From Cellulomonas sp. P24 (lineage in GTDB: Bacteria; Actinomycetota; Actinomycetes; Actinomycetales; Cellulomonadaceae), in contig NZ_JAJDFX010000002.1 in NCBI RefSeq assembly GCF_024704385.1, forward strand, positions 4,154,001 through 4,218,000: a stretch of 64,000 bases of DNA. Direction: 5' to 3'. This document shows, in pieces, positions 34,394-37,828 of this stretch; the stretch's first letter is position 1, and each line of letters opens with the position of its first letter. A program made the position numbers and the translations under genes. Below the pieces are notes generated by a model. It had not been told where the DNA came from. It searched no databases and was given only the letters and a program-made list of their open reading frames with translations.

Positions 34394-36154
<1,761 letters not shown>

Positions 36155-36668: not shown

Positions 36669-36686
36669 ACAAGCCTATGGGCTTGT
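36669..36686 (+). promoter_or_regulatory. SatD operator 1 (ACAAG-N8-CTTGT)
   Basis: 18-bp inverted repeat in the 97-bp gap before the SatD-like gene; the arms here extend to ACAAGCC/GGCTTGT. It covers the probable -35 region (TTGTGT at 36683-36688). Confidence 0.6.
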
Positions 36687-36696
36687 GTGGATGGTT

Positions 36697-36714
36697 ACAA
36701 GAGTCTAGCCTTGT
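36697..36714 (+). promoter_or_regulatory. SatD operator 2 (ACAAG-N8-CTTGT), overlapping the -10
   Basis: Second 18-bp copy of the same inverted repeat, 28 bp centre-to-centre from the first. It overlaps TAGCCT (36706-36711), which is 6 bp before the ATG at 36718, so a bound protein would block a leaderless promoter. Confidence 0.6.
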
Positions 36715-36717
36715 CTT

Positions 36718-37366
36718 ATGTTCGTCCTGACGATCGACCAGCAGGGGAGTCGCGCGCACGGCGACCGCGTCCCTGACCTGCTGTCCACACTCGCCGCACA
36801 CCCGGCCCTCACGCGCCCCGGCCTGGTACGACCGTTCGAACGGACGGTCGGGGACGAGGTCCAGGCAGTGGCCGACTCATCGGGCGTGGTGCTCGAGATC
36901 GTGCTCGACATCCTCCGGTGGGGAGGGTGGAGCATCGGGATCGGCGCCGGTCCTGTCGACCTTCCGCTGCCCACGAGCACGCGGGCGGGAGCGGGACAGG
37001 CCTTCGTCCTGGCGCGTGACGCCGTCGAGGCCGCCAAGAGCCGTCAGCGTACGGTCCCGCTCGTCGTGCGAGGAACGGATCCGGACCGCGCCCGGGACGC
37101 AGAGAGCCTGCTGGTGCTGATCGCGACGCTACGCGGCCGGCGCACCGATGCGGGCTGGGTCGTGGTCGACGAGATGCGCGCGGGGGGGGACATCCGCACG
37201 GCAGGAGGCGCTCGCCGCACGCCTCGGGATCAGCCAGCAGGCGGTGAGCCAGCGGTTGCGGACCGCCCTGTGGTCCGAGGAGCAGGCCGTGCTCCCGCTG
37301 GCGGCACGCCTCCTCGACGAGGCGGACGCCGTCGGACACGATGGACCCGCACACGCGGAGAACTGA
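36718..37366 (+). CDS. SatD-family protein with C-terminal HTH, one-base frameshift
   Basis: The first part (MFVLTIDQQGSRAHGDRVPD, RPFERTVGDEVQAVADSS, GWSIGIGAGPVD) matches the SatD family, whose biochemical role is not established. After the eight-G run 37182-37189, coding moves one frame; removing one G joins VVVDEMRAGG to TSARQEALAARLGISQQAVS, a clear helix-turn-helix. Repaired length about 215 residues. The paired ACAAG-N8-CTTGT sites overlapping its own promoter make autoregulation a natural inference. It is followed 48 bp later by a membrane protein gene. Confidence 0.7.
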
Positions 37367-37414: not shown

Positions 37415-37828
37415 ATGACCACGGCCACGACCATCGCCGTCGGCGCGCTGTCGATGCTCGTCAGCATCATGCTCGGGTGGCCAGTCACCCGCGGCATCCT
37501 GCGACTCGCCTCCCGCTCGTCCGATGCCGGCGAGCGTGCTTCCGACACTGCCGATGCCGCGGTCTCCGACGGGCCGGACGGTGCCCGGGCCCGGGCCTCG
37601 CTGCGTGGCGGCGCCTGGATCGGAATCCTCGAGCGCGCCGCGATCACCGGCTCCGTCCTGACGGGGTTCCCGACCGCGATCGCCTTCGTGATCGCTGTCA
37701 AGGGCCTTGGCCGCTATCCCGAGCTCAAGGAGAACCCCGGCGCGTCGGAACGGTTCGTCATCGGGACGCTCGCCTCGATGCTCTGGGCCGCCGCCATCGG
37801 GCTGCTCGGTCGTGCCGTCCTGGGCTGA
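37415..37828 (+). CDS. Small integral membrane protein next to satD
   Basis: 137 residues with three hydrophobic segments (ATTIAVGALSMLVSIMLGW; ITGSVLTGFPTAIAFVIAVK; IGTLASMLWAAAIGLLGRAV) separated by an Ala/Ser/Asp-rich loop. The conserved-looking patch KGLGRYPELKENPGASERFV resembles membrane proteins paired with SatD in other actinobacteria. Function unknown. Likely in one transcript with the SatD-like gene. Confidence 0.6.
   Translation: MTTATTIAVGALSMLVSIMLGWPVTRGILRLASRSSDAGERASDTADAAVSDGPDGARARASLRGGAWIGILERAAITGSVLTGFPTAIAFVIAVKGLGRYPELKENPGASERFVIGTLASMLWAAAIGLLGRAVLG

Follow-up and report, generated by a model that had tools for sequence, protein, structure and literature searches.

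The closest described counterparts of the locus analysed here are the members of the SatD family (PF16264), which takes its name from the sat operon of Streptococcus mutans. The family has the same two-part layout, with a Pfam profile that covers the helix-turn-helix (HTH) region, and there too a membrane partner is encoded alongside, in several lineages with a DUF3307 domain. The branch described below is divergent, its nearest intact copy (L036) scoring 22.4 bits against the PF16264 gathering score of 29. SatD can be likened to autorepressors of the lambda Cro/CI type, in which an HTH dimer with a recognition-helix code binds palindromic operators over the -35 and -10 elements. In contrast to Cro and CI, it carries another sensor domain, and its operators serve one leaderless promoter. 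Class III cyclases (for example mycobacterial Rv1264 and Rv1900c) have in common with SatD the predicted palm fold, both metal-binding Asp residues (D7 and D46) and the transition-state Arg. However, SatD has mostly Arg at the Lys position, an aromatic residue or Leu at the Asn position, and a fused HTH. The DUF2652 cyclase-like proteins are likewise an uncharacterised bacterial family with a class III fold assigned by computation, but they form a separate family, described as single-domain, and the available text of PMC4886424 does not mention SatD.

SatD has so far been a name without a biochemical role. The papers searched yielded no study of the protein as a regulator or as cyclase-like, and nowhere in them were operators or a fold assigned to the family. 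According to passages of PMC11323703, only one accessory gene of Streptococcus pyogenes ranks in the top quarter by essentiality score, namely satD (present in 178/249 genomes), and transposon data make it essential in the strains tested. In S. suis, satD is labelled 'DNA-binding protein' in one table of PMC12005413. The initial annotation had likewise credited SatD with no established role, but it missed a cyclase-like palm domain, covariation in operator specificity and a probable assembly error. The best reading of the present locus, which comparative evidence makes highly probable, is autorepression by SatD of an operon formed by satD and a membrane-protein gene.

The predicted palm domain and the membrane partner

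In the window, the whole 64-kb stretch of DNA analysed here, the N-terminal domain and linker of the satD-like gene occupy positions 36718..37188 (+ strand) in the frame of the start codon. Relatives of its first 157 residues are present in 141/199 related genomes. A scan of genome contigs kept 80 of the 179 loci that encode a relative, and the final set, after class- and phylum-level searches and with stretches taken from genomes, consists of 222 loci, or 206 distinct proteins. The SatD relationship claimed initially is supported by Pfam matches among the relatives: 59/78 match PF16264 at E up to 1 (best 5.4e-10), and two of the same branch, L137 and L138, lie above the cut-off (30.3 and 30.1 bits). 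The N-terminal part in the window gave no PF16264 hit. An NCBIfam search was uninformative, and a sequence search of solved structures gave DNA-binding HTH-type proteins only, among the matches listed. On our reading of the alignments, the marks of the family would be the C-terminal HTH and a GDExQ motif (G45 in 204, D46 in 205, E47 in 205 and Q49 in 202 of 206 proteins). L267 (Fusobacterium), L126, L133 and L136 encode longer SatD proteins of about 265-290 aa, which contain an additional region and are paired with a partner of DUF3307 type.

The N-terminal domain is predicted to adopt the palm fold of class III nucleotidyl cyclases and GGDEF-type proteins. In the AlphaFold2 model (78 aligned sequences, pLDDT 95, pTM 0.90), the invariant GDE sits between strands 36-42 and 47-52. 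In Foldseek, the PDB entry that matches best is the Rv1900c adenylyl cyclase domain, at an E-value of only 0.01 (probability 1.00), and the 50 matches listed by VIA-align all represent class III cyclases, GGDEF domains or GTP cyclohydrolase III. The top one, 1y10_D (Z 9.3, rmsd 2.2, 109 aligned), places the palm over residues 1-132. A search of the viral fold library gave nothing at E up to 0.001. When 28 actinobacterial cyclase domains are combined in a profile, their KTIGD motif lines up with the RTVGD of SatD, though only in a local alignment of 31 columns (E 5e-4, probability 31%). In the structural alignment, residue 216 of Rv1264 pairs with model residue 1, and the metal-binding Asp 222, which we take from the catalytic numbering of Rv1264, would fall on D7. 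Both metal-binding positions are kept (D7 in 201/206, D46 in 205/206), as is the Arg at the transition-state position (R100 in 200/206). The purine-selecting Lys is not: position 42 is Arg in 180/206 and otherwise F, Q, I, P or T. Nor is the transition-state Asn, since position 96 is F, L, Y, W or V (aromatic or Leu in 205/206). Because the domain retains the predicted fold and the metal site but has other residues at the purine-handling positions, it is called cyclase-like rather than a cyclase.

The downstream gene (37415..37828, + strand) encodes a membrane protein of 137 aa and is presumably co-transcribed with satD. It had been proposed as a co-regulated partner, and the gene linkage is indeed conserved: a membrane-protein gene comes next after satD in 72/78 homologues, a count that drops L038 and L090 (no stop). 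By our own tally, 33 of the 72 linked pairs have a 4-base overlap. The misses are L040, L051, L055, L070, L098 and L108, among them three short loci that end soon after satD (L040, L051, L098) and one with unread bases (L108). The linkage recurs in haloarchaea, Sphingomonas and Tsukamurella. DUF3307 (PF11750) finds no match in the partner in the window, nor does it figure among the matches of the 27 A2 members. What the partner has in common with the longer partner proteins is their C-terminal module, in which the partners encoded next to distant satD genes are homologous (HHalign probability 99%, E 2e-18). BLASTP aligns it to residues 168-250 of L133 (40% over 83 aa), in which the DUF3307 match covers residues 8-117, and in several lineages DUF3307 stands ahead of the shared module. 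The model of the L036 partner is helical (pLDDT 89), and a fold search with the partner retrieved no solved structure at E up to 0.001.

Linkage of this kind, with its overlaps and its recurrence in these lineages, would also suit a conflict module or one of toxin-antitoxin-like type: SatD would then also neutralise the membrane protein by direct action, or produce a nucleotide signal for it (Pycsar-like). Such a reading does not compete with autorepression but extends it. Retention of both metal-binding Asp residues points in the same direction, as does the accessory but essential state of satD in S. pyogenes given in passages of PMC11323703. However, the purine-binding and transition-state Asn positions are not kept, and PADLOC (2023 library) returned 0 matches for 6 proteins. 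L036 matches 2 of 72,556 plasmids, so the locus is not notably mobile, and a phage collection searched with L119 gave no match. The conflict function is a possible, still tentative, addition to autorepression.

The broken reading frame

The product of the gene had been described as ending in an HTH. The HTH is present at 37184..37366 (+ strand), as judged from HTH profiles and alignment with L036, the intact relative used for this purpose. However, it lies in a different frame from the first 157 residues, with its stop at 37364-37366. The break falls within 37182..37189 (+ strand), the sole G8 tract of the window. Two neighbouring genes, named aroK and aroB from their ORF translations (broken region 34440-35480), are also out of frame with respect to L036, near 34476 and 35446, by single-base differences in the length of G/C tracts. 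Since aroK and aroB are broken alike, and two of the three breaks in 3 kb affect core biosynthetic genes, the break in satD is likely an assembly error. The aroK and aroB breaks relative to L036 suggest homopolymer errors in the assembly. The position of the break in the only G8 tract might instead mark a true pseudogene or a phase-variable switch. The similar one-base breaks in aroK and aroB, at most 3 kb away, and the intact relative in the same genus argue against both, and a biological frameshift or phase switch, being improbable, was rejected as the likely case.

Twin operators and the promoter of satD

Two ACAAG-N8-CTTGT palindromes precede the gene, operator 1 at 36669..36686 and operator 2 at 36697..36714 (both unstranded). 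As first described, these are inverted repeats of 18 bp; both are exact matches and lie 28 bp apart, start to start, in the conserved registers -49 and -21. With up to one mismatch, the window contains 3 such sites (2 of them exact) vs 0.27 expected. The genome holds 5 exact single sites, vs 9 for a reversed-pattern control, and single sites therefore carry little meaning. The pair with 28-bp spacing occurs once in the 4.42-Mb genome even with 3 mismatches, and the control 0 times.

A lack of conservation of the repeats upstream of satD homologues had been set beforehand as a refuting outcome, but the repeats are conserved. Upstream regions were scored, blind to the letters, by the agreement of the four half-sites in two 18-bp palindromes 28 bp apart, with a cut at 7. 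Within -62 to -40, scores of at least 7 are reached in 138/206 distinct homologues, vs 10, 10, 6, 4 and 3 of 206 in five control intervals of equal width. Anywhere in the upstream 100 bases they are reached in 157/206, vs 2.2% of shuffled upstreams. The mean score by offset is highest at -49, with smaller peaks at -63, -35 and -77, which an array of palindromes with a 28-bp period must yield. A strong pair in the fixed register is absent from 68/206 homologues. Where the third helix residue is not Gln, only 11/39 reach the cut, and several of these homologues have palindromes with other half-sites. A second actinobacterial group combines TGAAG-N7-CTTCA palindromes with a different recognition helix, and Halorientalis has paired GTTCGG palindromes before satD. 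Some species carry one more palindrome copy further upstream; L046, L075 and L036 have additional palindrome or half-site copies 5' of the usual two. No clear pair was found upstream of satD in Fusobacterium, Agrobacterium or an Arthrobacter plasmid copy. The Arthrobacter plasmid locus (L269) encodes a divergent SatD whose GDE motif has E instead of the conserved G; neither a twin operator nor a nearby partner was found, and this copy is perhaps decaying.

The twin operators occupy the predicted -35 and -10 elements of a leaderless promoter. The right arm of operator 1 is the source of the TTG of the -35 (TTGTGT, 36683..36688, + strand), and the core of operator 2 is the -10 (TAGCCT, 36706..36711, + strand), with 17 bp between the two elements. 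Between TAGCCT and the ATG at 36718 lie 6 bases, which puts the element at -12 to -7 of a leaderless start with +1 on the ATG. A generic sigma-70 scan found no promoter, and the assignment comes from a comparative logo of homologue upstreams. Of 95 upstreams aligned in the -49 register, 98-99% have TTG at -35 to -33, 77% T at -12, 98% A at -11 and 100% T at -7, with the start codon at +1; columns -12 and -11 played no part in the choice of register. This logo bears out the original suggestion that the repeats lie over the -35 and -10 of a leaderless gene. In L202, L204 and L192, the palindromes are of ATTAGG or ATCAGG type, in some cases further upstream; this group has a purine-rich ribosome site and is apparently not leaderless.

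Many one-component regulators both repress and activate, and SatD might be an activator of its own promoter. However, the -35 is part of operator 1 and the -10 part of operator 2, and a protein bound over these elements excludes polymerase. Because of this coverage repression is preferred, and activation must be considered quite unlikely.

The recognition helix and the proposed mechanism

The half-site differs between lineages: most Cellulomonas have ACAAG, several other Micrococcales have TCAAG, one family of the class (f107) has GCAAG, and ACAAC or TCAACC occurs elsewhere. Base 1 of the half-site tracks residue 2 of the recognition helix (h2, within ...SQQAVSQRL). Excluding L168 (the copy in the window), L090 (no HTH) and rows that score <7 or contain an ambiguous letter, the pairs of h2 and base 1 are Q-A in 52/52, E-T in 25/25, R-G in 16/16, K-T in 6/6, P-T in 22/23, S-G in 2/2, A-T in 4/5 and D-T in 1/1. 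Of all protein columns tested, h2 is the most informative about base 1 (1.27 bits, runner-up 1.03). On a tree of the N-terminal part, built without the HTH, 6/7 changes of base 1 fall on branches where h2 changes (hypergeometric 4.7e-7, with branches treated as exchangeable). Of the seven, one falls on the root split, another (L080) is not accompanied by a change in h2, and two are lone tips whose operators are weakly called; about three appear to be robust independent switches.

At base 5, the residue with the highest mutual information is h7 (Q-G 91/95, K-C 6/7, R-C 4/5, A-C 2/6), which suggests that h7 may contact this base. The contact stays a suggestion because the tree test failed, with 1/9 changes coinciding (p 0.37). 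Two loci outside the fitted set agree with the code. A Tsukamurella plasmid has R at h2 and twin GCAAG-N8-CTTGC palindromes, and the haloarchaeon Natronosalvus has Q at h2, K at h7 and twin ACAACC-N6-GGTTGT palindromes 29 bp apart. The Natronosalvus locus (L265) is on a haloarchaeal plasmid, where the actinobacterial helix code is obeyed in another domain of life.

Conservation of the half-sites, together with letters that track the helix of SatD itself, provides strong comparative evidence that satD would be autoregulated. It is very improbable that the palindromes are sites of another, global regulator that happens to control satD: three more single sites do exist in the genome, but all lie within long ORFs, single sites are no commoner than the control, the spaced pair is unique, and the covariation is with SatD, on which grounds this reading was rejected. 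Autorepression, as had been predicted from the layout, is supported by operators in register and by half-sites that follow the SatD helix.

The proposed mechanism builds on four comparative results, namely operator conservation, promoter register, helix-operator covariation and partner linkage. We infer dimerisation, the sign of the regulation, the nucleotide ligand and the effector role of the membrane protein. SatD would thus be a two-domain autorepressor that binds as a dimer, via its C-terminal HTH, to two 18-bp palindromes 28 bp apart over the -35 and -10 of a leaderless promoter. Bound SatD would silence both its own gene and the membrane gene that follows. The palm domain probably binds or converts a nucleotide, which would relieve or tighten repression, and the change in repression may release the membrane protein as the effector.

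On a broader scale, SatD and its membrane partner could conceivably belong to a nucleotide-signalling module widespread in bacteria and haloarchaea: the palm-domain protein would make or sense a nucleotide and repress its own gene through the twin operators, and stress would release a membrane effector that does harm when unrestrained, although this extension is doubtful. Restraint of a harmful partner may be what makes satD essential in S. pyogenes even though it is an accessory gene there. If this restraint model is true, deletion of the partner gene should rescue the loss of satD. The recognition code predicts the outcome of swaps, and the fold points to nucleotides with Mg or Mn as ligands to try. 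A protein that was a name without a biochemical role is now given a testable DNA target.
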